A DNA stretch of 25,354 nucleotides from positions 1-25,354 of the IMG/VR virus record IMGVR_UViG_3300045999_007792; one strand, 5' to 3'. Position numbers and translations under genes: made by a program. The stretch is from a virus. The notes under the pieces were generated by a model, which was given only the letters and a program-made list of their open reading frames with translations, did no database searches and was not told where the DNA came from. Below, piece by piece: positions 3,001 to 25,354 of the stretch; the first letter of the stretch is position 1; every line of letters starts with the position of its first letter.

Positions 3001-6000
3001 AAACCGGCTTTCCCATATTTTATTGGTAAGAGCTATAAATCACCTTACACTGAATATAACTTCGATTATAAATCTAATCAAGACCAGATTGATTTAAATC
3101 AATCAAAATGGTTAAGAAACACGGCACCATACAAGTTAAAATCATCATCTAGTAATTATAATTACATCTTTAAGCCTTTTGATATTATTGAACAAACTGC
3201 AAGAGTGAATAGCACCCTTTCTGGTTCAGTTGAGGAAATAACTTTAACAAGTAGTGGAGATGGATATAAAATTAGAGACTCAGTTATTTTTAATAATACC
3301 TCTACTGGTGGAAGTAATGCAAGAGCTGAAGTTTCATTATTAAAAGGTAAGACCGTTAAGGAGATTGGGGTAGCCTCAACCTCAATTTTTAATGTGGAGT
3401 TTTATCAACAACAATCTGGTTTAATTGGTATCTCTACACTACCTCATCCATTTAATGATGACGATGTTGTTGTTATTTCTAATGTCAATAAGAATAAAAA
3501 GATTTTAGAAAAAACCTTTACAATTAAGGTTCCTAAAAATGTTCTTATTTTGAATGAGGATGTGAATGTTGTCGCTCTCACTGGAATTGCAACTTACATC
3601 AATGTTTATGGGGATTTGAATATTCAGGCAAATGACATCTATCAATTAGAATCTGAAAAAATCAAAGTTCTTAACGTAGATATTGATTCATCAAGACTTT
3701 ATGTTGAAAGGGGTTATGCAGGTTCTATAGCTGGTTATCATACAACTGGAGTTGCAATAACCGAAGTTCCTCGTAAATTTATTGTAGATACCGAAAATAA
3801 TTCCTTCATTAATTCTAAGGTTAATAGAGAGCTTTATTTCATTCCTTCAGAGTCTTTAGGTGTAGGAATAGGGTCTACAGTTATTTTCTCTAATCCGGGC
3901 ATAGGTCTTACAAATATCTTTATTCAACCTAAGAGCATTTATATTCCTCAACATAATATCGTTACTGGTGAAAAATTAAAATATAACGTTAATGGTGGAA
4001 CTGGAATTGTTGTTTCTAATAATGGAATCAATACTTCAGTTCTACAAGATGGTACTGAGGTTTATGCTGTAAAATATTCTGACAATTTTATTGGAGTTTC
4101 AACCGAAAGAGTTGGAATCGGAACTACTGGTAATTTTGTTGGCTATAATACTACAGCTCCAGCTAAAATTCTTTCTTATCATTTCTTCGGCTCTGGAGAT
4201 GAACATAGTTTTAAAACGTCCTATGATGTAACATTTGGACAGGTTGATAGATATTTGGCTAACGTATATACATCTTCAAATTCTCAACTATCGAGAAATG
4301 ATATTGTAAATGTCTCAGTAAAACCCACAACAATTAAAACTATTAAGGTTGTTTACAATCTATTCAGACAATTATTAGTTGTAAATCCTAGAGTATTTGC
4401 TTCTAATGATGTTGATACATCTTTAGATACCATCACAATAGTTAATCACAATTATTTTACTGGCCAGAAGATACTATACAAGTCTGATAATCCTATTACA
4501 GGTCTTTCTAATGATGGTCTTTATTATGTTGTAGTTAAGAACTCCAATAAGATTAGTCTTTGCTCTTCTTATTATAATTCACAATTAGAGGTTCCTATTG
4601 TTATCAACCTCTCATCTCAGTCCATTGGTACACTTTATGAAGTTAATCCTAGAATTGAGATTGCAAAGAATCAAACTCTAGTTTTTGACCTTTCCGATGC
4701 TAGTCTATCTCTCTTTGATGGCTCTCAGTTTGTTTCGGCATTTGATTTTAACATTTTCATTGATAAAAAATTCATCAATGAATTTAGAACAACAAATACC
4801 AACAATACATTCAATGTAATAAAAACAGGAAATATTGGAATTGATAATGATGCCAACTTGACCATCACTTATGACGATAAGATTCCTTCTGAGCTTTATT
4901 ATAATCTGATACCATTGAAAACATTGAATCTCTTTGTTGATGATGAAAACAATGAAACAAATAACATCATCAATTATGTCAATAGTACATTCTCTGGAAC
5001 TTATAGAGTTAGCGGTATCGGAACAACCTCTTTCTCGTATATTTTAGACAAATATCCAGAGGCTGAGAGATATACTCAAAACATTAGTTACACCACCTCT
5101 TCAAAGAATGCTCAAGGTGGAATTGAACGAGTAACTGTAGTTTCTGGTGGTCTTAATTATAAATCTCTTCCTGGTATAAGTTCAATTAAGACTCAACAAG
5201 GAACTGGTGCTATTCTTAATGTTTCTAGTACATCTATTGGTCGAATTAATAATGTTTCAATTAATGATATTGGATATGATTATCCAAGTGACCTTACTCT
5301 AACACCAATAACTCAAACTCCAGTAGTGTTGAAGATTATTCCTCAAAGTGCTCTTGAGAGCGTTGGAATTGCTTCTCAAGGTAGAAACTACCTAATTGCC
5401 CCAGATTTGATTCTTTTAGATGGCTTAACTCTAAAACCAATCGACGAAGTAGACTTAAGATATGAGTTAGGTGACACGGAAGTTAAAATTGTAAAGAATA
5501 GTAAGGGTATCAATAATATTAGTCCCATCATTATTCCAACCAATAATTCAAATGCCATCGGAATAAACTCAATTTCTTATAACTCAACTACAAAAGAAGT
5601 AACTGCAACACTTTTTGAAAGTTATAGCACACTTAATGAGTTTCCGTTTAGAGTTGGAGATAAAGTGTTAGTTGAGAATGTTTCTATTGTTGAGGATGAT
5701 TTAGCTAAAGGATATAATTCATCGTCTTATGATTTTGCAAGATTTACTGTTACAAATATTACGCCAAATCTTGGATTTTCAAATGGAAGCGTAACTTATA
5801 GTCTTCTTGGTTATTTGAAAGATAATGAATATCCTGGTGTTCCTAATTTGGGATTTATAAATGGAACTATTATTCCTGAATCTTTCTTCCCGATTTTTGA
5901 CATTAAATTGAGTAAGAATCTTTTTCTAAAGGACGAAGTTGTAACTTCTGGAGACAATTCTGGAGTTGTTCAATTTTGGAATAAGGAAAACGAATTATTG

Positions 6001-9000
6001 ACAATTTCAACAAATAGTGAATTTAAATCTGGGGAAATTATTGTTGCTTCTGGCTCATTATCAAGTGGAGTTGTTGATAGAGTTTTTGATTTTGAATCAA
6101 GATATGAAATTGATTCCTCTTCTATTGTTAGAAAAGGCTGGAGGACTGAGAAAGGATTCTTGGATAACGAATTTCAACATATTCAAGATAACAATTACTA
6201 TCAATCATTCTCTTATTCACTGAAGTCTAAAATTGACTATAACACCTGGGATAATGCCGTCAGCAGCTTAAATCATACTGCAGGTTTTAAAAAGTTTGCT
6301 GACCTTATTATTGAATCTGAACCAGTTGAAGAAGAAATTGTTCTTGACCCATCTGTTGTAGATTTCATCATTTCAATTGAATCTGATGTAAACTTAAATT
6401 GTATTGACGATTTTGACTTAGCTGGAGAGAATAGTTATTATGTTGATGGTGAATTAGGGTCTAATGAGATTTATCTAAAATCTCAAATCATTGCAGATTA
6501 TACCGAAGCTCTAGGAAACAGAGTATTGATTGTAGATGATATAAGTCCACAATTTGATGGAAATCTAAAGCAATTTGAGCTTAAATCTAATAATTTAGAA
6601 GTATTCTCCAGAACATTTAGTGGAGTTAGTTCTTCAGTTGTTGATGTAAATAATAGTGTTTTAAACCTCAACAATCACTATTTTACTCATGGAGAAAGAG
6701 TCACTTATAATTACGATGTGGCTCCTATTGGTATAACGACCACCAATATCACCGGACTAGGTGCAACTGATAAACTACCTGGAGAAGTTTTCATCATCAA
6801 GTATAGTGATTCTTCAATTGGTTTCTCAACTTCTGCTGCGGATGCCTTAAGAGAAATTCCTCTTCCTATTGTTATTACTGGTGTTGGTGTTGGAACTTCT
6901 CACACTTTAACAGCAACTTCACAAAATAGTAGATCCATTATAACTCTTGGTGGTATTATACAAGCTCCAGTTACACGAACTGAAGTTACTACTCAATTAT
7001 CAAATAATGTTGGAATTGCATCGACAGTTATTTACTTCTATGATACCTCTAGTTTTGCTAGTGGTGATTTTTCAATAATTGATGATGAGGTATTTAAAAT
7101 TGTTTCAGTCGGTCTTGCAGCAACAAATTCACTACATGTTGAACGAGGAATTGCTGGAACTGCAATTACATCACATATTACCAATACAACTGTTTATAAA
7201 GTAACTGGAGATTATAATATTGTTAACAATGTTCTACATTTTGTTGAGGCTCCTAAAGGGCCAACACCAATTGGGACAACTACAGGGTCTTCGGAGAATG
7301 TTGATTTTGTTGGAATAACAACTTCTTTAGATTTTACAGCTAGAGTATTCCTGAGAAATGGTGAACTCAATGACGATAAAGATGCTTATGCAACAAATTA
7401 TGTGTTTGATGATATCTCTACTGGTTTTAATGGTATTACCTCCACCTTCATTTTAAAATCTAAAGGAGTTGATGTTATAGGATTTGAAGAAAATAATGGC
7501 TCAATATTAATTGGAGAGGTTTTTCAATCTCCATCTGATTTTGAGGGCGTTCATAAGACTTATGGTGGTTATACTCTAAAAGAAACAAGTGGCATCACCT
7601 CCATAAGATTCTTAAGTAGTTCTGAACCACAAAGCTATAATTCAGGTGTTTCTGGTATTCCAGTAGGAGGGAATATTGTTGCAATTGGTTATACTGAGAA
7701 CTATGGTTTCCAACCTTTAGTTGCTGCTGGAGGTACGGCTGTTGTTTCTATTGCTGGAACAATTGAATCCATCAGTATTGGTAGCAGTGGTTCTGGGTAT
7801 AGACCTTCTCTACAAACAATTAATGTTGGTGTATATGTTTCTACAACTGATGAAGTTATTAAAACAATTGTTGGAGTTGCATCCGTAGTAAATGGACGTG
7901 TTGTTTCAGTTGCCATCACTAATCCTGGAAGTGGTTTTAGTGCTTCTAGTCCTCCGGTAGTAAAATTTGATGACCCAATTCCTTATCATGATGTACCTTT
8001 AAGATATGTTCATCCAGTTAATGGAATTGGAACAGGTGCTAAGGCAAACATTAAGGTCGGAATGGGTGCTAGTATTATTGATTTCGACTTCTCTAATAGA
8101 GGGTTTGGTTATAATAAAGGAGATATTCTAACAATAGACACGGAGGGACCTTTAGGTATTCCAACCTTCACTTATGCAGCCTCTGAAGGAGGTGGTGGCG
8201 GTGGTGACCTTTATCCTACTTGCACAAATGGACTTCTTATATCAACAATTGCAGGTTCTGGAGGGGCTGGATATACTTGCACTTTAGGAAATGTAGATTA
8301 TACCTTTGCAAATGACATTATAGAACTTAATCTTCCAGATAATGCAGGTTATGTTGATTTTGTAGATTCTGGAACTACTCAACAAGTTATCTTTAAAAAT
8401 TTAAATTTTGAAGGTCTTGCTGCATTTTCTTACAGAATATCTTCAGTTACTAATACCATTACTGAGATTGTTCAGACCTGGACTCAATTACCATCAAGTC
8501 CTCCACCGTTATATTCAGAAATCTTTGCCGACGTTCCTTCCACTGTAGTTTCAGTTGATTCTGTATTTGAGACGGATGTGTCATCTCTAAAGACGCTTAC
8601 TCACACCATAAGCCTGGTTCCCGTCGGCGGTGGCGGCGGTGGAGGGGGATTATCCTCTGAAAGATACACTCCATTCTTAATAACTGTAGAAGATATTTAC
8701 CGTCAAAAATTCGCTGGATGGACTTTTGGACAACTTCAAATTATTGACTCAGTTGAAAGTCTATTCAATAACTCAAGAAAGATTTTTCCTCTTAGGGTGG
8801 ACAATCAGCTCCAGAGTATTAGAAAGCGAATTGGTTCTCCTATTGATATTAATGCTCTTTTCCTGGTCTTTATCAATAATGTACTACAGATTCCAAGATA
8901 TAATTACACAATTTTCGGGAGCAGCTATATTGTCTTCGACGAATCTCCAAGAGTTGGAAGTTCTTGTTTAATTCTCTTTTATCGTGGTAATGGTACTTCC

Positions 9001-11795: not shown

Positions 11796-14700
11796 ATGCC
11801 ACAGGAAACAAATCTTAATATCAATCCATATAATGATGATTATAGTCCAGCTAATGCGTACTATAAGATATTATTCAAACCACTTCCTGTTCAGGCAAGA
11901 GAATTAAACAGTCTACAATCCATATTTCAAAATCAAATTGAGCAATTTGGAAATCATGTTTTCAAGGAAGGCTCTGTGGTTATTCCTGGAAATATTGATT
12001 ATGATGATGACTTAAATGCAGTTGAACTTCAAAACACTTATAATGGTGTAGAAATTTCATCCTACATATCACTTTTAGATGGTAAAACTCTTAAAGGTAA
12101 AACAAGTGGAGTAAGAGCAACAGTTGTTCAATATAGAAGTGAAATAGAATCCATAAGAGGAAACAATACAATTTATGTAAAATACATCAGTTCAAATTCT
12201 TTAGGTATTAGTGCTCTATTTGTTGATGGTGAAGAGCTTATTGTAGAGGAAACCACAACAAATACTCTTTCCACAGGCGAAACAGTAATCTTTTCAGCTG
12301 GGCAAACAGTTGCCGCAACTATTTCTAGTAATTGTAATTCAATTGCTAGTTCTGTAACAGTTTTTGATGGTATCTATTTTATTCGTGGAACGTTTGTTAA
12401 TGTATTTAAACATTCTATTTTATTAGACCAATATTCAAACAAAGTTTCTTGTAGAGTTGGTTTCAATGTTAATGAAAAAATCATAACGGCTTATGATGAC
12501 TCTTCATTGTTTGATAATTCATCTGGGTTTTCTAACTACACTGCACCTGGAGCGGATAGATTTTCATTTGAACTCATTCTAACCAAATATGACTTAGAAG
12601 AAGAAAAACCAAGCAATTTTGTTCAGTTACTAGAAATACAAAATGGTCTTTTGGTTACAAATCAAAACATTCCTGAGTACAATGTTTTAGAAAAAGAACT
12701 AGCAAGAAGAACTTTCAACGAGTCTGGCAATTATTATGTTTCACCACCTACAATCTCAGTCAACGAATCTTTAAATAACTTCCTAGGAAATAATGGAATC
12801 TATGAATCTACAGAAATCACTTATGACGGAAATACTCCTAATGATTCTTTAGGGATTTATAAGATTTCTCCTATTCAGGCATTTGTTCAAGGTTATGAAG
12901 TAGATACTGGAGTTAATTTTGTAGACTTTTTAAAACCAAGAACAACTAAACTATTAGAAAATCAAGAGCTTAACTATTATACAGGACCAACTTTAACTCT
13001 GAATAGAGTATATGGAACTCCTTTTGTTGGAATCTCAACAAATTATATTTTAAGTTTAAGAGATACTAGAGTTGGTTCTTCACAAATTGTTTCGGCTGGT
13101 AAAGAAATTGGTCTTGCAAGAGTTTATGATTTTGCATTAGAATCTGGAAGCTATTCCACTAGCAATTCAAACTTGAATGAGTGGGATATTGCTCTTTTTG
13201 ACGTACAACCTTATACTGAACTTTCTCTCAATCAAAACTTAACCTCTGATTCTATTTTTAATGTTCCTTGTAAAGTTGAAGGAAATTTGAGTGGAGCTAG
13301 TGGTTTTATTCGTTATGATGTTAGAAATAGTGGAATTGTTACAGTCTATGATGTTAATGGCTCTTTTGCTAGTGGAGAAAGTTTAACATTTAATGGTATT
13401 TCAAATCCTAGAATATCTGTTGCAGTTACTTCATATTCACTGAATGATGTAAAATCTGTTTATGGTACAGTTGGAGCAGGGTTTACCTTTACTGCTGATG
13501 TTAAGCAAAATGTTGGAATAAGAATTGGTCAAGTAAACATTACTCCAATTTCTCCTGCAACTGGAATTTCTACGGTTACATTAACGTCCAATAGTTTTGC
13601 CGGAAATGCAAATATTGGAAACCTTGTTTCATTCTCAACTCCAGGTGTATCCACAGTAAATTATGCTAGAATAACTGAGGTTTCTCATAATACCTTAAAA
13701 ATAACTGGAGTAACTACAGTTGCTGGTATTTGTGAAGGTGCTCTTCCAACAAGTGTTATAAATCCCACAGACTTTACAATACTTTCCTCAGCTTTTACTA
13801 GGTCTCAAGATAATACTCTATACACTAAACTACCCAAGGAAAGGGTTAATGATGTCAATCTAAATGAATCTAATATTGTTATAAGAAAGCAAATTGACGT
13901 TACCGTTTCAGCTAATTCTATTGGTCCAATCAATGCTGATGTAAATGAATCATTCTTACCATTCGATGAAGAACGTTATGCTCTTATTAGAGAAGATGGG
14001 ACGACCGAAGTTTTAACCTCAGATAAATTTGTATTCACGAATGGTTCACAAACCTTAACAATTAATGGTCTGGGAAGTGGTTCTAAAGCCAAGTTAATTG
14101 CAACATTAAGAAAAATTAATGTTAAAGAGAAAGTAAAATATAAGAATAGAGTTAAGACTTTAACTATAAACCTCTCAAAATACTCTAGTTCGGGTATTGG
14201 AACAACAACTCTTAATGACGGGTTATCTTATGGTAATTATCCTTATGGAACAAGAGTTCAAGACCAAGAAATCTGTCTTTTAACTCCAGATGTAACTCAA
14301 ATTTATGGGGTTTTTGAATCTTCTACAATAAATTCAGCAATTTTACCAAATATTTCTCTAATTTCTCTTAATGGTCCTACAAGCAAAACTGATGATTTGA
14401 TTGTTGGTGAAAAACTTATTGGTTCAACCACAAAAACTGTTGCAATTCACATTGGAAAAGTAAATGATTCTAGCATTAATGTCGTTTTCTTAAATTCTTC
14501 TCGTTTTCAATCAAATGAAACAGTAGTTTTTCAAGAATCTGGAGTAACAGGAATCATTAATGGGGTAGTTATCGGGGATTCTGACATCACTTCACATTAT
14601 ATTTTAGAAAAAGGTCAAAAATCTACAATTTATGACTTCGGTAAGATTGTAAGGGCCTCTGATAAACGAGAACCCAATAGACAATTAACGATTATATTTG

Positions 14701-16757
14701 AGTCTGCAGAGTTCTTAACTTCTGATGTTGGTGACATAATCACTGTAAACTCTTATAGCAATTTTGATTATTGTTCACTTCCTAAAGTTGATAATATTTC
14801 TGTCTCTGATATTATTGATATTCGACCAAGAGTGGCAAATTATACCATAAATCAAAATACTAGGTCACCATTTGAATTTTTAGGTAGAGATTTTTCAGCT
14901 ACACATTTAAACCCTAGAAATGTTTTAGCCTCTGATGAGTCTATAAACCTTGATTATTCATTCCATCTCTCAAGAATTGATAAGCTCTTTTTAACTTCTG
15001 AAGGTAACATTGAGTTAATTTCGGGAAACCCTGCTGAAACTCCACAACCTCCTTTTTCATTAGAAAATTCCATTGAAATCGCCTCAATTTATCTACCTGC
15101 ATATCTTTGTTCTGTAGATGATGCTCAACTTGAGCTAAAGATGTATAAACGCTATAGAATGGAAGATATTAAGAGTTTAGAAGATAGAATAAGCAATCTT
15201 GAGTATTATACTTCTCTTACTTTACTTGAATCTGATACTTCTAAATTATTCATTCCAGATAATTTTGGTAATAATCGTTTTAAGTCTGGATTCTTTGTTG
15301 ATAATTTTACTACAACTCTCGCACAAGAACGTACTACAATAATCAAAAATAGTATTGACTTTGATACAAATGAACTAAGACCAGCTCCTTATACAACAGC
15401 ATTAGACCTTATTGTTGCAACTAAGTCAATAATTGGCGTAGGAACTGTTGCGGAATCTAATGTTGATTTAAGATATATCAATGACTTGATTGGAACCAAT
15501 GTTAAGAAAACTGGAAATCTCATCACTTTAGATTATGATGAAGTTGTTGAATTAGTTCAACCATATTCCACAAGAGTTGAGAGTGTTTCAGCTTATAGAA
15601 ACAACCTTTTTCAAGGTTCTATTTCTCTTCAACCTTCCTCTGATGTTTGGGTTGACCAAGCTAAAGTTTCAACAAATTATGTTTCAACTAAGTCTTTAGT
15701 TCCCTCGCCTGAACAAGTTGCTCTAGCTAAATCAAATCAACAGATTGGTCTAAATCCAACAGTTTGGGACCATGTTTCTAAGATTTGGGCCGAAGGTAAT
15801 ACTTTAGTTAGTAGTCAAATCATCAATTACATGAGACAAAGAAACATTGAATTTGTTGGTAGAAGACTAAAACCATTTACTAGACTTTATGTCTTTTTTG
15901 ATAATCGTGGAATGGATAAATTTGTTGTTCCTAAGCTCATTCAAATACAGATGACTTCAGGAACCTTCCAAGTTGGTGAAACTGTTATTGGAACAAATCC
16001 TATTACTGGAGCCACAATAAAGTTTAGAGTAGCCAATAGTAATCATAAATTTGGTCCTTATAATTCTCCCACGGTTGTATTTGTTCAAAATCCTTACAAT
16101 CCTAATACAACACTTCAGGCAAGCTACTCTTCAACTTCTACAATACTCAATGTAGACACGTTTAGTCTATCTAACATGGTTCAAAGTGATTTCATGGGTT
16201 ATATTGATGGTGGAATGAAACTAAAAGGACAAACCTCTAGTGCCGAGGCGATTGTTAGTTCTGACGTTAAATTAATATCAGATGTTTATGGCGACATTCT
16301 TGGGTCTTTGTTTATTCCTAGAGCAAATCCTTCATTTGAAACTGGAAGTAAGAGATTTAGAATAACTGATAGTCCTACAAATTCAACAGCCGAAAGCGGG
16401 GCTAGTTCTTATGCTGAAAACAATTTCATTGCTTCTGGAACGCTTGTAAACTATCAAGAAAATGTTGTTGAAGTTAGACAAATCCCTTCATCTAGCACAC
16501 CTTCTAATACACCAGCCTCTGCAGGTTCTCCAACTCAAGTTCAACAAGTTAGACCGTGGCAAAATGGAGATATTTCACCACGAGGTAATAAGATTGATGA
16601 TTCTGAAGGAAATCGAGTTGTTGATAGTATTAATCAAAAGAATGGAACTTCATTTTCTTTATCTCAATTAAAACAAGCTGCAGGAATTAACAACTTAAAC
16701 AAAGTTTCTGAGCTTAATAGATTAAATGATGCTGCAAAACGATTAGCTGGAAGATAA
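11796..16757 (+). CDS. DUF4815-type baseplate/fibre structural protein
   Basis: The 1,653-residue product opens with INPYNDDYSPANAYYKILF and VQARELNSLQSIFQNQIEQFG, the characteristic N-terminus of the DUF4815 family of large T4-like phage structural proteins. A second conserved core lies at about residues 1000-1200, with DIIDIRPRV, YLPAYLCSVD, and MYKRYRMEDIKSLEDRISNL (from residue 1116). Next come a FVGRRLKPFTRLYVFFDNRG block (about 1350) and a GETVIG...SGA-type region. The last ~95 residues are a Ser/Pro/Thr-rich linker (about 1558-1580) followed by a polar, probably helical tail. Its position after gp8 corresponds to T4 genes 9/10/11, so it is probably a baseplate outer or fibre-attachment component; the exact T4 equivalent is uncertain. 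It starts 6 bases after the gp8 stop, with no clear Shine-Dalgarno, suggesting coupled translation. Confidence 0.82.
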   Translation: MPQETNLNINPYNDDYSPANAYYKILFKPLPVQARELNSLQSIFQNQIEQFGNHVFKEGSVVIPGNIDYDDDLNAVELQNTYNGVEISSYISLLDGKTLKGKTSGVRATVVQYRSEIESIRGNNTIYVKYISSNSLGISALFVDGEELIVEETTTNTLSTGETVIFSAGQTVAATISSNCNSIASSVTVFDGIYFIRGTFVNVFKHSILLDQYSNKVSCRVGFNVNEKIITAYDDSSLFDNSSGFSNYTAPGADRFSFELILTKYDLEEEKPSNFVQLLEIQNGLLVTNQNIPEYNVLEKELARRTFNESGNYYVSPPTISVNESLNNFLGNNGIYESTEITYDGNTPNDSLGIYKISPIQAFVQGYEVDTGVNFVDFLKPRTTKLLENQELNYYTGPTLTLNRVYGTPFVGISTNYILSLRDTRVGSSQIVSAGKEIGLARVYDFALESGSYSTSNSNLNEWDIALFDVQPYTELSLNQNLTSDSIFNVPCKVEGNLSGASGFIRYDVRNSGIVTVYDVNGSFASGESLTFNGISNPRISVAVTSYSLNDVKSVYGTVGAGFTFTADVKQNVGIRIGQVNITPISPATGISTVTLTSNSFAGNANIGNLVSFSTPGVSTVNYARITEVSHNTLKITGVTTVAGICEGALPTSVINPTDFTILSSAFTRSQDNTLYTKLPKERVNDVNLNESNIVIRKQIDVTVSANSIGPINADVNESFLPFDEERYALIREDGTTEVLTSDKFVFTNGSQTLTINGLGSGSKAKLIATLRKINVKEKVKYKNRVKTLTINLSKYSSSGIGTTTLNDGLSYGNYPYGTRVQDQEICLLTPDVTQIYGVFESSTINSAILPNISLISLNGPTSKTDDLIVGEKLIGSTTKTVAIHIGKVNDSSINVVFLNSSRFQSNETVVFQESGVTGIINGVVIGDSDITSHYILEKGQKSTIYDFGKIVRASDKREPNRQLTIIFESAEFLTSDVGDIITVNSYSNFDYCSLPKVDNISVSDIIDIRPRVANYTINQNTRSPFEFLGRDFSATHLNPRNVLASDESINLDYSFHLSRIDKLFLTSEGNIELISGNPAETPQPPFSLENSIEIASIYLPAYLCSVDDAQLELKMYKRYRMEDIKSLEDRISNLEYYTSLTLLESDTSKLFIPDNFGNNRFKSGFFVDNFTTTLAQERTTIIKNSIDFDTNELRPAPYTTALDLIVATKSIIGVGTVAESNVDLRYINDLIGTNVKKTGNLITLDYDEVVELVQPYSTRVESVSAYRNNLFQGSISLQPSSDVWVDQAKVSTNYVSTKSLVPSPEQVALAKSNQQIGLNPTVWDHVSKIWAEGNTLVSSQIINYMRQRNIEFVGRRLKPFTRLYVFFDNRGMDKFVVPKLIQIQMTSGTFQVGETVIGTNPITGATIKFRVANSNHKFGPYNSPTVVFVQNPYNPNTTLQASYSSTSTILNVDTFSLSNMVQSDFMGYIDGGMKLKGQTSSAEAIVSSDVKLISDVYGDILGSLFIPRANPSFETGSKRFRITDSPTNSTAESGASSYAENNFIASGTLVNYQENVVEVRQIPSSSTPSNTPASAGSPTQVQQVRPWQNGDISPRGNKIDDSEGNRVVDSINQKNGTSFSLSQLKQAAGINNLNKVSELNRLNDAAKRLAGR

Positions 16758-16781: not shown

Positions 16782-19271
16782 ATGAAAATATCCGACCCAA
16801 TTGCTCAAACATTTTATGTTCCAGCCAAGTCTGGTTATTTTGCTACATCTATTGATTTGTTTTTCTATAGTAAGGATGTAACACTTCCTGTAACGATACA
16901 ATTAAGACCTACAGAATATGGTCAACCTTCTGATGGGGTCCATCCTTATTCCGAGGTTATTTTAACGCCAGAGGTAATCTCAACATCTGATGATGGCACT
17001 TTAGCTACTAGAGTAAAATTTGATTCACCAGTTTTTCTTGAAGGTGAAACGTTTCATTGTGTTACACTAACCTCTAATTCTGACCAGTATAAGGTTCATG
17101 TTTCAAGACTAACTGAAATGGACCTTTCTTCTAGTTCTAATAGTAGTATATTCGTAACAAAACAACCACTCTCTGGAACATTTTTTAAATCACAAAATGG
17201 TTCAACCTGGACATCAATTCAAACTGATGATTTAAAATTCACCATATATCGAGCGAATTTTAAATCTCTACAAGGTGACATTAATTTCTACAATTCAGAA
17301 CTTGGAGAGGCTAATAATCAAATTGCTATACTCAATCAAAATCCATTAGAGATTATTTCAAGAAAAGTAAGAGTAGGGTTAGGTTCAACTCTAGTCTCAT
17401 CTTCATTAACTACAGGTAACATTGTAACACAAATAAATTCTACAGGTCAGGGTAAATTAGTTGATGTTACGGGACCCGCTTCTGGAAATCTAAAAATTGT
17501 CAATGCTGGAATTGGCTATACTCCTTCAAGTGGTTCTTTAACTTACAATAATGTTCCTCTAACATCTCTAACTGGAACTGGACGAAATGCAACTGCTAAC
17601 ATCACTATAACGAATGGTTCTGTTACTTCAGTTGGAGCTACCATTTCTTCAGGTGGAAATGGTTACAAAATTGGTGAGATTTTAACACCAACAAGTATTG
17701 GTGCTGTAAATTTGGGCTCTAATATGCTCATCTCAGTACAAACCATCTCAGGTCAAAATGAACTTATTTTAGATGAAGTTCAAGGTGAATTTGTAGCAAA
17801 TGATTCCAACAAGACTCTCTATTACAATGCCATTGGTGGAGGTGATTTATATTTTGATGGTGTAGTAAAAGCCTATCCAAATAATCTAATTGTTGAAGAG
17901 AGCGGAGAATATATTAAAGTCAATCATCTAAATCATGGAATGCACTCTAAGACTAATAAAGTTAATTTAAGTAAAGTTTCTAGCGATATTAATACTACTA
18001 AACTTTCTCAGACTTATTCAAATACCTCTACATCAAATATTGTTTTAGAAGATGCTCAAAACTTTACCACGTTTGAAAATCTTCCAGTTTCGGTAACAAA
18101 TCCTGGATATATTTTAATTGACTCTGAGATTCTTTCATATACTGGAGTTTCAGGTAATTCTTTAACTGGAATAACCCGTTCAATTGACCAAACAAAAGCA
18201 TCATCTTATACTTCAATAGATGAAGTTATGAAGTATGAGCTGAATGGTGTATCACTAAGACGTATTAATAAAACTCATTCTCTAACTGATTCTGAAATCA
18301 CTTTAGATTCCTATAAAATTAAAGTAGACTTTTCTCAAGCTGGTAATGTTGCTGCTCTTCCTCAAGGAATCACAAATAGGAGTTCAGGGTCTGCTTTAGG
18401 TCAACTCTTCTTTAAACTTACAGAATCTACTGGAGGTGATAAAGTTAGAGCATCTCAAAACATTCCTTTTGAGATTGTAAAACCATTGATTGAGTCTAAA
18501 GTTCTTCCTAATACAACTCTTGTTTCAAAGCTCAGAACAACGACGGGAACAAGTATAAGTGGAAATGAACTATCTCATCAAGACGGTGGATTTACTGAAA
18601 TCTCTTTGTCGGAGAATAATTACTTTGACACTCCTAGAATAGTTTCTTCCAAGGTTAATGAAACTCAGTATCTAGGCTTTCTACCTGGAAATAAGTCTCT
18701 TACTTTGAATGTTCAATTTAATAGCTCTAATGCTCTTGTTTCACCAACAATTGATTTACAACGAGTAGCATTATCTTTCACTTCCAATAGAATTGATAAT
18801 CTTATTACAAACTTTGCAACTGACAATAGAATTGCTTCTTTATCTAATGACCCTTCAGCATTTGTTTATGTGAGTAAACCAATTGCTCTTGAACTTTCTG
18901 CAAATGCCTTAAAGATTTTCATCACTGCTCACATTAATGTCTTTAGTGAGGTAAAGTGCTTATATTCTGTCTTGAATAATCCTAATGAACCTCTAGTCTA
19001 TTATCCATTTCCTGGTTATAATAATCTTGATTCTAGCAATACAATTATTGATATATCAAAAAACAATGGACTACCTGACAATAGAATACCTAAAGATGAC
19101 TCTATTGGCTTTAAGTCTAATGAAATTACTTATAGGGAGTACAGTTTTACAATGGACAGTTTACCGGCTTTTAGATATTACAGTATTAAGCTAGTTGGAA
19201 ATTCAACAAATCAGGCTTATCCACCGAGAATTAAAGACTTAAGAGTCATTGCATTAGCTGGAGAAAACTAA
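16782..19271 (+). CDS. Large virion structural protein, baseplate/fibre partner of the DUF4815-type protein
   Basis: 829 residues. The N-terminus (KISDPIAQTFYVP, then IDLFFYSKDVTLPVTIQLRP) is a conserved block of marine T4-like structural proteins that I recall occurring at the end of DUF4815-type proteins. A Gly-Tyr repeat pair lies at about residues 235-305 (VNAGIGYTP, LTGTGRNATANITI, ISSGGNGYKIG), and an FP/RG-type module at about 415-490 (YILIDSEILSYTG, GITRSID). The C-terminal ~110 residues (INVFSEVKCLYSV, LPAFRYYSIKLVG, PPRIKDLRVIALA) form another family block. It lies 24 bases after the previous gene. The likely location is the baseplate periphery or the base of the tail fibres, by analogy with T4 gp10-gp12 by position; this is inference. 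The ATG at 16782 is chosen because the conserved N-terminus begins directly after it. Confidence 0.78.
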   Translation: MKISDPIAQTFYVPAKSGYFATSIDLFFYSKDVTLPVTIQLRPTEYGQPSDGVHPYSEVILTPEVISTSDDGTLATRVKFDSPVFLEGETFHCVTLTSNSDQYKVHVSRLTEMDLSSSSNSSIFVTKQPLSGTFFKSQNGSTWTSIQTDDLKFTIYRANFKSLQGDINFYNSELGEANNQIAILNQNPLEIISRKVRVGLGSTLVSSSLTTGNIVTQINSTGQGKLVDVTGPASGNLKIVNAGIGYTPSSGSLTYNNVPLTSLTGTGRNATANITITNGSVTSVGATISSGGNGYKIGEILTPTSIGAVNLGSNMLISVQTISGQNELILDEVQGEFVANDSNKTLYYNAIGGGDLYFDGVVKAYPNNLIVEESGEYIKVNHLNHGMHSKTNKVNLSKVSSDINTTKLSQTYSNTSTSNIVLEDAQNFTTFENLPVSVTNPGYILIDSEILSYTGVSGNSLTGITRSIDQTKASSYTSIDEVMKYELNGVSLRRINKTHSLTDSEITLDSYKIKVDFSQAGNVAALPQGITNRSSGSALGQLFFKLTESTGGDKVRASQNIPFEIVKPLIESKVLPNTTLVSKLRTTTGTSISGNELSHQDGGFTEISLSENNYFDTPRIVSSKVNETQYLGFLPGNKSLTLNVQFNSSNALVSPTIDLQRVALSFTSNRIDNLITNFATDNRIASLSNDPSAFVYVSKPIALELSANALKIFITAHINVFSEVKCLYSVLNNPNEPLVYYPFPGYNNLDSSNTIIDISKNNGLPDNRIPKDDSIGFKSNEITYREYSFTMDSLPAFRYYSIKLVGNSTNQAYPPRIKDLRVIALAGEN
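19260..19263 (+). promoter_or_regulatory. Ribosome binding site (GGAG) for the 76-residue gene
   Basis: GGAG lies inside the last codons of the preceding structural gene, 9 bases before the ATG at 19273. The stop TAA and the ATG are separated by one base, so translation is probably coupled. Confidence 0.55.
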
Positions 19272-22737: not shown

Positions 22738-23169
22738 ATGGGAAGACCTAAGAAATTTACAAAACTTAATGAAACTTTCAATCTTGACGAGCCTTCAACG
22801 GTAGATGTTCAAGTTGTAGATGAACAAATTTCAGATATTCAAAAGTTTAATGCAGATGTAGATAAAGATTATCATTACTCAAGAACCAGTTATTATAACA
22901 TCATAGAAAAGGGCCAAGAAGCCATATCTAATGCTCTTGAGTTGGCTCAAGAAGTAGACAATGCAAGAGCCTATGAAGTTGTTGGACATCTTATTAAGAG
23001 TGTTTCAGACGCTGCAGATAAGCTAATGGACTTACAAAAAAAGATGAAAGATATTGGTGAAGAAAAGACTCATAAAGGTCCTTCAACTGTTACTAATAAT
23101 GTTGTGTTTACTGGAACAACTGCTGAGGCTCTTAAACTCATTAAACAGCAACTTAAAGGTGAGGGATGA
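22738..23169 (+). CDS. 16: Terminase small subunit gp16
   Basis: 143 residues, slightly shorter than T4 gp16 (164). The N-terminal ~50 residues are polar and probably flexible. The central helical hairpin (DYHYSRTSYYNIIEKGQEAI, ALELAQEVDNARAYEVVGHL, ADKLMDLQKKM; about residues 40-105) is the recognisable gp16 core, which in T4-like phages oligomerises into rings that bind DNA and stimulate the gp17 motor. The C-terminal tail contains VTNNVVFTGTTAEALKLI. It follows gp15 by 3 bases with a good GGAG, and its stop overlaps the next start as ATGA. In T4 the next gene would be 17; here it is an unrelated protein. Confidence 0.88.
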   Translation: MGRPKKFTKLNETFNLDEPSTVDVQVVDEQISDIQKFNADVDKDYHYSRTSYYNIIEKGQEAISNALELAQEVDNARAYEVVGHLIKSVSDAADKLMDLQKKMKDIGEEKTHKGPSTVTNNVVFTGTTAEALKLIKQQLKGEG

Positions 23170-24932
23170 TAAATAAAAATAAGGCTATCAAAGAACTTGA
23201 AAATAATCTAATTGTAGCCAGTGATATTTCTTATAATGCGATTGACAAGATGATGAGAACCATCATGAAAAAATATGGTCTCACAGCTAAAGAACTTCAT
23301 CATGGGTTTAAGAACAAACACAACAAAACTCCCGATGACTGGATTAAAATGAAAAGAAACATTCAGGAAGACCATAAAGAAATTAAAGATGGTCAAAGAA
23401 AAGATGAAGAAGGATATATGGCTAGAGTGGAGTTAGAAAATATTGATAAGTCTATTAAACATTTAAGAAAAGTCATTAAGTCTGGAGACCAACAACTTCC
23501 AGCATGGGTTCAATCAAAAATTACAAGAGCTGCTGATTATATTGATTCTGCTGCTGAATATCTTACATCCAATGAAAAAGTTCAAGAGGATGTTGTATCT
23601 AAGGTTCTTAAGTCCATCTTTGAAGAAGATGATTGTGAATGCGAAAAAGAATCTAAGCCTGTAATGAGTGTTAAGAGTATTGCCAAAAAGCATGGAGTTT
23701 CTTCATCAGATATTCTTTCTCAACTTAAAATGGGAATTAAAGTTGAGAAAGAACATACAACCGATAAAAAAGATGCAAGGGCAATTGCTCTACAACATTT
23801 AGCTGAACGCCCTGATTATTATACAAAACTTAAGAAAGTGGAGACCCCTCAAAATGAGTCTGCAATTCTTAGTAAAGTCTTAGAGGATATTGCCTTAGAT
23901 GAAGCCGGAACTCTTCATCAATGGTTTAAAGATTCAAAATCAAAAGATGGTAAACCTGGTTGGGTGCAAGCTGATGGTTCTCCTTGTGCTAATGAGCCAG
24001 GTGAAACTAAAACTCCTAAATGTTTCAGTAGCTCTAGACTAGCAGCCTTAAAGAAAAAGGGTAAGAAGGGTGAAAATCTTATTAAATCTGCCATTAGACG
24101 AAAAAGAGAAGAAGACCCAAATCAACAATCAAAGGCGGGTTCTGATAAACCAACTAACGTTAAGACTTTTGCTAAAGGTAAAAAGGACAAGAATTACGTT
24201 AAAGCTGAACCGAGCCTTAAAGAATCTAAGAGTCTTGTAGAAGCTAAGAAAGATATTCCTGGAAAGGGTAGTGGAACCAAAGATGCTTGCTATCATAAAG
24301 TCAAATCCAGATTCGATGTCTGGCCGAGTGCATATGGCTCTGCTGCTCTTGTAAAATGTCGTAAAGTTGGTGCAGCTAATTGGGGTAATAAGAGTAAGAA
24401 ATCAGTAAACGAGGCAACTCTTCCCGTTCAGAATGGTCATGTGATGCAAATTTTATTCTCTTGGAGAGGTAAAATGATGACATCTCAACTGTTCTTTCCT
24501 CAGGTTAGAGTTCCTAATAGAATGGAAGTTAATGATGCAATCGTTAAGGTTTATCCAGATGCAAGAGTTCTTAATTACAAAATCTCTGACCGAAATGTAG
24601 GAGAACCCTTAATTCAGATTCCCAACAGTCGTTCAAAGAATTATCTTCTTAATAACAAGACTATCGGTGAGGATGTCGAGTATTTTGATGAAGAAGGTCC
24701 GAGTCTTTCTGTAGGTCGTGGAGAAAAACTTCCCGTCTCAAGAGGTGGTGGATTAACAGCTAAAGGACGAGCAAAGTATAATCGAGCAACAGGTTCAAAT
24801 CTTCAAGCTCCAGTTACAGGAAAAGTTAAAAGAGGTAGTAAAGCCTGGAAGCGTAGAAGAAGATTCTGTAGTCGCTCAAGAAGCTGGACTGGTCCTAGAG
24901 GTAAGGCTGCAAGAAGACGTTGGAGATGTTGA
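23166..24932 (+). CDS. Basic multi-domain protein, possible processed head (internal) protein
   Basis: 588 residues, function unknown. Residues 1-155 are helical and charged (YGLTAKELHHGFKNKHN; AWVQSKITRAADYIDSAA). Residues about 163-226 (VKSIAKKHGVSSSDIL, GIKVEKEHTTD, ALQHLAERPDYYTKL) resemble DUF5661. Residues about 248-336 form a Lys-rich segment with KDGKPGWVQADGSPC and CFSSSRLAALKKKG. Residues 361-411 contain KDACYHKVKSRFDVWPSAYG and KCRKVGAANWGN. Residues about 419-484 form a small alpha/beta domain (VMQILFSWRGKMM, VNDAIVKVYPDARV). Residues 527-588 (GLTAKGRAKYNRATGSNL, SWTGPRGKAARRRW) are very basic. Sites L-x-E/A or S lie between domains (after E246, E353 and E359; V-N-E/A after E416), matching the known T4 gp21 prohead protease preference. 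Walker and nuclease motifs of a large terminase are absent. It overlaps gp16 by 4 bases (ATGA), so it is co-expressed with packaging genes. A DNA-condensing or ejected internal protein is inferred. Confidence 0.8.
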   Translation: MINKNKAIKELENNLIVASDISYNAIDKMMRTIMKKYGLTAKELHHGFKNKHNKTPDDWIKMKRNIQEDHKEIKDGQRKDEEGYMARVELENIDKSIKHLRKVIKSGDQQLPAWVQSKITRAADYIDSAAEYLTSNEKVQEDVVSKVLKSIFEEDDCECEKESKPVMSVKSIAKKHGVSSSDILSQLKMGIKVEKEHTTDKKDARAIALQHLAERPDYYTKLKKVETPQNESAILSKVLEDIALDEAGTLHQWFKDSKSKDGKPGWVQADGSPCANEPGETKTPKCFSSSRLAALKKKGKKGENLIKSAIRRKREEDPNQQSKAGSDKPTNVKTFAKGKKDKNYVKAEPSLKESKSLVEAKKDIPGKGSGTKDACYHKVKSRFDVWPSAYGSAALVKCRKVGAANWGNKSKKSVNEATLPVQNGHVMQILFSWRGKMMTSQLFFPQVRVPNRMEVNDAIVKVYPDARVLNYKISDRNVGEPLIQIPNSRSKNYLLNNKTIGEDVEYFDEEGPSLSVGRGEKLPVSRGGGLTAKGRAKYNRATGSNLQAPVTGKVKRGSKAWKRRRRFCSRSRSWTGPRGKAARRRWRC

Positions 24933-25208
24933 TGGAGATTTCATTTCTTCCATCTCTTCAGTAGTTAACTGCTTATTAAAATATCCATTCTTTTTGAGAA
25001 TCCAATAAGCTAAAGCCTCAGCTTTAGAAAAGCTGTCCATCTTAGCTTGCACAAGAAAAGCTTTTGTTTGAATTTCTTCTAACACTTCATCAATAAAGTC
25101 TGCATAAAATAATTCCTCAGCAACTTTAATGACTTTACGACTTTGGTTAGAGTTCATGTTAAACGATTCTGTTGGTGTTGGGTAGTTCCAATTAATTGGT
25201 TGACTCAT
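24876..25208 (-). CDS. Small hypothetical protein, minus strand, convergent with the 588-residue gene
   Basis: From the ATG at 25208 the product has 110 residues, starting MSQPINWNYPTPTESF. The middle part (SRKVIKVAEELFYADFIDEVLEEIQTKA, in two stretches, and FSKAEALAYWILKKNGYF) is acidic and helical and looks like a real soluble protein; I do not recognise the family. An in-frame TTG at 25223 would add five residues, but ATG is preferred because it overlaps the upstream gene's stop as ATGA, a normal coupling arrangement. The last ~19 residues are Ser/Thr/Pro-rich and are encoded opposite the Arg-rich tail of the plus-strand gene, a 57-base 3' overlap. No signal peptide or membrane helix is seen. 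Confidence 0.65.
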   Translation of the reverse strand: MSQPINWNYPTPTESFNMNSNQSRKVIKVAEELFYADFIDEVLEEIQTKAFLVQAKMDSFSKAEALAYWILKKNGYFNKQLTTEEMEEMKSPSTSPTSSCSLTSRTSPAS

Positions 25209-25354
25209 GGGTTTACAATGCAAGGTTCAAGGTTGCTAAAGTAAATGTTACATTTATTATAAAGAAGTAAAACATTTTCTTCAGTATCATCACGATGAAA
25301 TCTTGATTCTCTATAAACTTTATAATTATTAGAAAATAATTTAATACCCTCATC
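25205..25354 (-). CDS. 3' end of a minus-strand hypothetical gene (cut by window edge)
   Basis: Reading the minus strand from base 25354 gives 49 uninterrupted codons followed by TGA (25207-25205). It starts with DEGIKLFSNNYKVYRE, continues through FHRDDTEENVLLLYNKCN, and ends in EPCIVNP. The start lies beyond the window. The stop overlaps the next gene's start as ATGA, which supports both being real and co-translated. The composition is ordinary for a soluble protein; the family is not recognised. It indicates a minus-strand operon reading toward the structural genes. Confidence 0.6.
   Translation of the reverse strand, partial: DEGIKLFSNNYKVYRESRFHRDDTEENVLLLYNKCNIYFSNLEPCIVNP

Follow-up and report, generated by a model that had tools for sequence, protein, structure and literature searches.

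Predicted prohead-protease sites between the shuffled modules of a cyanophage GC119 protein suggest a head-cargo polyprotein

The window is the whole 25,354-base IMG/VR record IMGVR_UViG_3300045999_007792 and carries tail and neck genes. Their order is gp7-like baseplate protein (open at its 5' end), gp8, a pair of phrog_358 ORFs, gp13-like, gp14, gp15, gp16 and an ORF of 588 amino acids. The terminase small subunit gp16 (22738..23169, plus strand; PF11053 E 1.2e-8, phrog_445 E 1.6e-44) and this last ORF (23166..24932, plus strand, as are all of its parts given below) overlap in an ATGA. Its homologues are annotated as T4-LIKE GC 119 and also follow gp16. From tblastn matches and annotated neighbours, the modular polyprotein could be assigned to the cyanomyovirus T4-GC 119 family, referred to here as GC119. 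The best annotated relatives are the GC119 proteins S-SM1_115, S-SM2_109, Syn19_101 and S-SSM5_108; other homologues are annotated as hypothetical, structural or virion proteins. Some part of the polyprotein is matched in 391 phage records. ORFs 136 and 137 of S-CREM2, which were detected in virions and lie between the sheath terminator and the tail sheath gene (PMC10665884), could not be identified as GC119 homologues and were left uncounted.

In cyanomyoviruses the T4-GC 119 gene sits between gp16 and gp17, and in several relatives the terminase large subunit gene is directly next. Within the window record gp17 is not the next gene, so that its proximity is known from the relatives. The ORF after the polyprotein in the window (24876-25223) lies on the minus strand and has no PHROG matches, whereas in annotated relatives the genes after the polyprotein are on the same strand. 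In phage B23 (L092) the polyprotein is followed by a terminase gene (4624-7266) of 2,643 bases, which is about 1 kb above the other relatives and may contain an insert. Further upstream in the window, the first of two adjacent ORFs (11796-16757) matches phrog_358 at 1-1418, and the second (16782-19271) continues the match at 1421-2055. As S-SM2 has a single VrlC gene at this place, the VrlC-like gene seems to be split in the window. The late-promoter pattern ATAAATA is rarer in the window than expected by chance.

The preliminary description of this DNA saw the 588-residue product as a chain of small domains. This is borne out: seven modules (A to G) could be defined in the window protein, and in relatives they are found reordered. 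Module A (residues 5-60, 23178..23345) is all-helical, with HMM matches in shuffled relatives and a pLDDT of about 73-90. Module B (residues 80-137, 23403..23576) was delimited by HMM and is found in other relatives at the N-terminus or after D or E. Module C (residues 167-226, 23664..23843) is a DUF5661 domain (PF18905 E 3.1e-17) that resembles IF2_N (PF04760 E 1.3e-7). It is followed by two basic modules: D (residues 248-340, 23907..24185; phrog_727, phrog_3477, HMM), which could be modelled in part, and E (residues about 359-410, 24243..24395; HMM), whose alignment shows strong conservation. Module F (residues about 417-487, 24414..24626) was delimited by HMM and is beta-rich. Module G (residues 511-588, or 528-588 by Pfam and HMM, 24696..24929; PF19846 E 8.5e-14, pLDDT 71-89) is a very basic DUF6321 domain and stands at the C-terminus in nearly all multi-module relatives. 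Alignments show the modules to be conserved, domain-like units containing invariant Cys and Trp residues.

In scans of the polyprotein against Pfam, NCBIfam and PADLOC, only DUF5661, DUF6321 and IF2_N came above the cut-off; NCBIfam gave merely a weak luciferase-type match far under the cut-off and PADLOC no match. A sequence search of the PDB found no match, and Foldseek against the PDB none at E <= 0.001. The AlphaFold model of the whole protein has a mean pLDDT of 52.6 (57.8 for modules D-E alone). Modules A, F and G are modelled confidently, and modules B to E too poorly for fold claims.

The same modules occur in varying order across about 100 relatives. By HMM, the orders include ABCDEFG, CADEBG, BCFG, DBEFG, CDEBFG, DEFG, ADEBG and others. 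Some relatives contain additional small modules, such as a CWKGYKQVGMKKKGGKMVPNCV unit and a zinc-ribbon-like RYCPKC...ECxYG unit. In S-SCSM1_29 six modules each start just after hydrophobic-x-Glu, the joints being VSE/GTLHKW, MTE/GKDKKG, FNE/DCWDGY, IKE/DVGQVRYC, IEE/SVRVPAK and VSE/GAAWTK. In S-SM2 (L057) the GC119 homologue carries a DUF192 domain (PF02643, E 3.6e-24; residues 339-441) as an insert flanked by two predicted sites. An 853-residue homologue (L002:4989-7547) holds an intein-like insert inside module E (residues about 455-652), which starts with CVPENSTKSL..., ends with ...ITGN before a Ser and weakly matches a Hint domain (PF01079 E 9.8e-4). Many relatives encode, shortly after the polyprotein, a separate paralogue of module F (102-112 amino acids; for example L050:3515-3829, L056:5857-6189 and L094:5039-5374; phrog_1742 in the one scanned). 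Modules A and B are also found in other proteins beside ribonucleotide reductase genes, in S-N03 (L201, 3695-5041) and S-CAM7 (L099, 3315-3755). The S-N03 protein, otherwise unrelated, contains module A only and was set aside as a relative.

Four predicted prohead-protease sites lie between the modules of the window protein. The preliminary description had placed them after residues 246, 353, 359 and 416 and had counted three exact sites and one near match; both statements hold, with L-x-E/[AGS] at the first three and V-x-E at the fourth. The C-D joint carries LDE/A (E246, codon 23901..23903). This Glu is invariant in a 22-sequence alignment, in which it is one of twelve invariant columns, and a site stands before module D irrespective of what comes ahead of it (C, A or another stretch). 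The D-E joint carries a pair of sites, LKE/S (E353, 24222..24224) in a low-confidence, linker-like segment and LVE/A (E359, 24240..24242). In relatives the first reads IKE/A or IKE/S and the second LNE/A, INE/A, ITE/A or IQE/A, the pair being IKE/A plus LNE/A in most close relatives. At the E-F joint VNE/A (E416, 24411..24413) is found. In relatives module F is likewise preceded by a site (VEE/A, VTE/A, VKE/A, VSE/A or IDE/S), after differing upstream modules.

At two further joints a hydrophobic-x-Glu is present, but Asp follows. These are the candidate sites IQE/D at the A-B joint (E68, 23367..23369), which reads LNE/D and FPE/D in relatives, and VQE/D after module B (E141, 23586..23588), where the joint of relatives reads LKE/S, TKE/S or GTE/S. 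For the last module, a border at 526/527 had been assumed, where no site is present. Its natural border is E509/E510 at the F-G joint (YFDEE/GPSLSVGRGEK; codons 24690..24695), to be read as FDE/E or DEE/G, with FDE/A and LEE/A in close relatives. This is also where free-standing copies of the module start. The basic character ascribed to the pieces is confirmed by their charges (247-416: net +22, pI 9.9; 527-588: net +21, pI 12.0), and for the last basic piece 510/511 is a better border than 527.

Upstream of module D the Glu is retained in most relatives, whether module C, A or none precedes. Where D is N-terminal, the start Met occupies the place of the upstream Glu (MNEDLRDWF; MANKSGDSSLHDWF). 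In one cyanophage subgroup the site before D lies about seven residues further upstream. In the AlphaFold models the four sites at 246, 353, 359 and 416 all fall in low-confidence stretches, which is only mild support because modules B to E are likewise poorly modelled. Counted over the window protein alone, the sites are not above chance (4 versus 2.0 expected by composition, p = 0.15); their significance lies in their position and their conservation in relatives.

Across the relatives, the motif [LIVMFW]xE[AGS] was counted in linkers and in module cores, with composition-preserving shuffles of the same linkers or cores as control. In 30 proteins below 75% identity, the linkers contain 112 sites versus 32.5 +/- 5.7 in shuffles, and the cores (about 9,000 residues) 3 versus 20.1 +/- 4.2, where z-scores overstate independence because the sequences share ancestry. 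At stricter cut-offs (50, 40 and 30%) the linkers of 14 proteins gave 56 sites versus 16.2 (maximum 26), those of 8 proteins 38 versus 10.6 (maximum 19) and those of a five-protein subset of this first set 26 versus 7.8 (maximum 16). A second, held-out set of later loci, filtered against the first, yielded 102 sites versus 35.4 (maximum 47) in linkers and 3 versus 17.3 in cores, and in its strictest subset of five proteins the linker excess lay inside the shuffle range (18 versus 9.4, maximum 21). Some joints are without a strict site (found at CA 0/5, DB 2/5 and EB 6/11), and in one homologue the motif lies inside a DUF192 domain. The preliminary description would have been abandoned had homologues lacked the Glu sites or held them in folded domains; the idea survived, with sites in the linkers, depletion in the cores and the same picture in any module order.

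The specificity recovered from the linkers is V/L/I/F/M at P3, Glu only at P1 and A/G/S at P1'. At P3 of Glu-[AGS] the hydrophobic residues V, L, I, F and M are enriched, and the enrichment is found chiefly at this position. After [LIVM]xE, A/G/S follows in 107/239 cases in linkers (45%, with a background of 20%) and in 1/52 in cores. When the Glu at P1 is replaced by D, Q, K, N or S in the motif, the linker counts are at background. For T4 gp21, cleavage follows L/I-X-E and is blocked when the cut position holds Asp (PMC9026906). Sites of the L/I-x-E consensus are present at predicted processing positions, both as the sites of the window protein and as the linker enrichment in relatives.

The protease gp21 (PF03420) and its standard substrate gp23 (PF07068) were both found in 13/13 relatives searched first, eight of which are named phage genomes. 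In seven further polyprotein records, all of them incomplete contigs, gp21 was found in five. The gp21-gp23 region is missing from the 25-kb fragment that forms the window, and we infer the gp21 of its own phage from these relatives. In gp22 of the relatives the motif occurs 98 times versus 39.8 in shuffles, with six conserved sites (TIFE/A, EMTE/S, DVLE/S, RLAE/S, DVAE/G and TLRE/S). The N-terminal cut region of gp23 reads FLSE/A, FLAE/A, FLAE/G, FLYE/A, LME/A, LFE/A, ISE/A and variants. It had been suggested to look for the same gp21 preference in gp22 and gp23, and their conserved sites do match the polyprotein joints: with the motif conserved in all three, the joints resemble the sites that the same phages have in gp22 and gp23. 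Whole-protein site counts give a weak signal, with gp22, gp21 and GC119 within the top five of 208 ORFs in the S-SM2 proteome and GC119 outside the top 14 in that of DSL-LC02. Being short, the motif also turns up outside expected head proteins: the VrlC-like ORF 11796-16757 has 13 motifs versus 5.9, despite no head role being expected for it. Two S-SM2 ORFs (GU071095.1, 50782-51918 and 131995-133401), ranking first and third for motif excess, may be further gp21 substrates.

Module G also exists as a standalone gene of about 75-90 residues. Its product begins with Met and a few Lys/Arg, followed by GPSLSVGRGEK or variants, which is the sequence after the EE/ joint in the window. These genes contain no site, and their start coincides with the boundary that the site predicts. 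In three records the standalone gene stands between the genes for the terminase large subunit and the portal, in two more it is near a terminase gene, and in S-TIP28 it lies two genes ahead of the terminase large subunit gene. The protease gp21 was found in 0/9 standalone-G records, among them the complete T7-like S-TIP28, the rest being limited by contig incompleteness. The fused, site-bearing form therefore tracks gp21, which is present in 5/7 (and in the 13/13) fused-form records.

Taken together, GC119 is very probably a precursor chain that gp21 cuts between the modules in the prohead, releasing small and mostly basic proteins. A head-packaged precursor had already been suggested, and the linker sites, the specificity matching gp22 and gp23 and the co-occurrence with gp21 lend that reading support from sequence. 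Because its joints carry the site of the head-maturation protease, the chain is probably cut in the growing head into small proteins. It would enter the prohead with the scaffold. During maturation the gp21-type (S77) prohead protease would cut the joints at hydrophobic-x-Glu/small-residue sites, and several small basic proteins would be set free in the head lumen and stay with the DNA. As a module flanked by a short site would be released singly, modules could be swapped, reordered, inserted or lost between phages, in line with what the relatives show. Module shuffling, the placement, specificity and conservation of the sites, gp21 co-occurrence and the position in the packaging cluster can be read from the sequences themselves. 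From these we infer actual cleavage, scaffold-mediated packaging and retention of the pieces with the DNA. As a guess, the pieces might condense or bind DNA, or might act in the host after ejection, and module G might serve as a head-targeting or DNA-binding anchor.

GC119 could instead be of the gp22 or gp67 type, part of the scaffold or core and cut by gp21 at many places; most of its fragments would then leave the prohead, and its modules would have their function in assembly rather than in the mature virion. The dense and conserved sites of this kind in gp22 fit such a role, as does the fate of the T4 core proteins, which are cut to fragments most of which exit (PMC9026906). In GC119, however, the cuts would fall between modules and spare them (the 3 core sites given above), and the modules are conserved and domain-like, down to their invariant Cys and Trp. 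Furthermore, the S-SCSM1 homologue SSCSM1_29 is labelled 'virion protein' in its record. Mass spectrometry identified 45 proteins in S-SCSM1 virions (PMC9602691), and the wording of the record suggests that the label reflects such detection. PHROGs gave no homology to gp22, which is a separate gene in the relatives. A scaffold role is considered unlikely.

It is quite improbable that GC119 is an uncut multi-domain structural protein with flexible acidic linkers, in which the Glu-small motifs reflect linker composition or helix caps. The linkers are indeed Glu-rich and of low confidence in the models, and the site count of the window protein is at chance. When the linkers are shuffled at constant composition, however, the number of sites falls to about a third, Asp does not take the place of Glu, the enrichment of hydrophobics is concentrated at P3, the motif is depleted in modules, and module G is a separate, site-less gene in records without gp21. 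That the cutting is done by a protease of the host, or takes place in the host cell after injection and not in the prohead, is hardly credible: although the identity of the predicted protease rests on sequence, the motif equals the conserved one of gp22 and gp23 in the same phages, the site-bearing fused forms track gp21 and the gene lies in the head and packaging cluster.

The cut-precursor reading accounts for the jumbled-domain look of GC119 and provides a widespread family of cyanophage genes, so far of unknown function, with a role that can be tested. It predicts exact N-termini, which can be searched for in existing virion spectra, and names a set of small proteins as candidates for packaging or injection together with the DNA of viruses that abound in the sea and in fresh water. 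If true, tailed phages would possess a head-cargo polyprotein that is processed by a prohead protease from a gene of its own, and several head-internal proteins could be loaded at a fixed ratio and exchanged by recombination. A broader version, which we hold tentatively and rate somewhat below an even chance, treats the gp21 site as a universal joint by which cargo genes have been fused and reshuffled in one 'cargo train'. The DUF6321 module would bring the chain into the prohead, a single targeting event would supply equal numbers of several proteins, head-internal or injected, and a domain of any kind, as with the DUF192 of S-SM2, could be inserted between two sites. In open-licence full texts, no description of either the module shuffling or the protease sites of GC119 was found, nor any paper naming DUF6321 or DUF5661.

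Several known systems share part of this picture. The T4 internal proteins IPI, IPII and IPIII and Alt, which are gp21 substrates ejected with the DNA, are like GC119 in the predicted processing at hydrophobic-x-Glu, the small basic products and the head cargo. They are, however, encoded by separate genes and carry a short N-terminal targeting propeptide that is removed by the cut (Alt is also cut C-terminally), whereas GC119 is one gene with up to seven or more modules, split by sites and in shuffled order. No sequence relation between them was detected, and the GC119 relatives have no shared N-terminal propeptide, their N-termini varying with the first module. In phiKZ and SPN3US, many inner-body and ejection proteins are substrates of a prohead protease directed at Glu (S/A-X-E and A-X-E), as predicted for GC119. 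There, 13/14 sites belong to N-terminal propeptides (PMC10052503), so that propeptides are removed and no multi-protein chain is divided, unlike the predicted cutting of GC119. The polyvalent proteins (Iyer et al. 2017, PMC5512222) are, like GC119, multi-domain, mosaic and predicted to be head-packaged and processed. They contain an embedded peptidase and recognised effector domains, whereas no peptidase domain was found in GC119 with Pfam, NCBIfam and PADLOC, and its predicted protease is encoded separately as gp21. Finally, the T4 gp22 scaffold resembles GC119 in bearing many gp21 sites in one protein, but those sites chop the core protein itself, while the GC119 sites spare the modules. Set beside these systems, GC119 is predicted to be a domain-shuffled cargo polyprotein for gp21.
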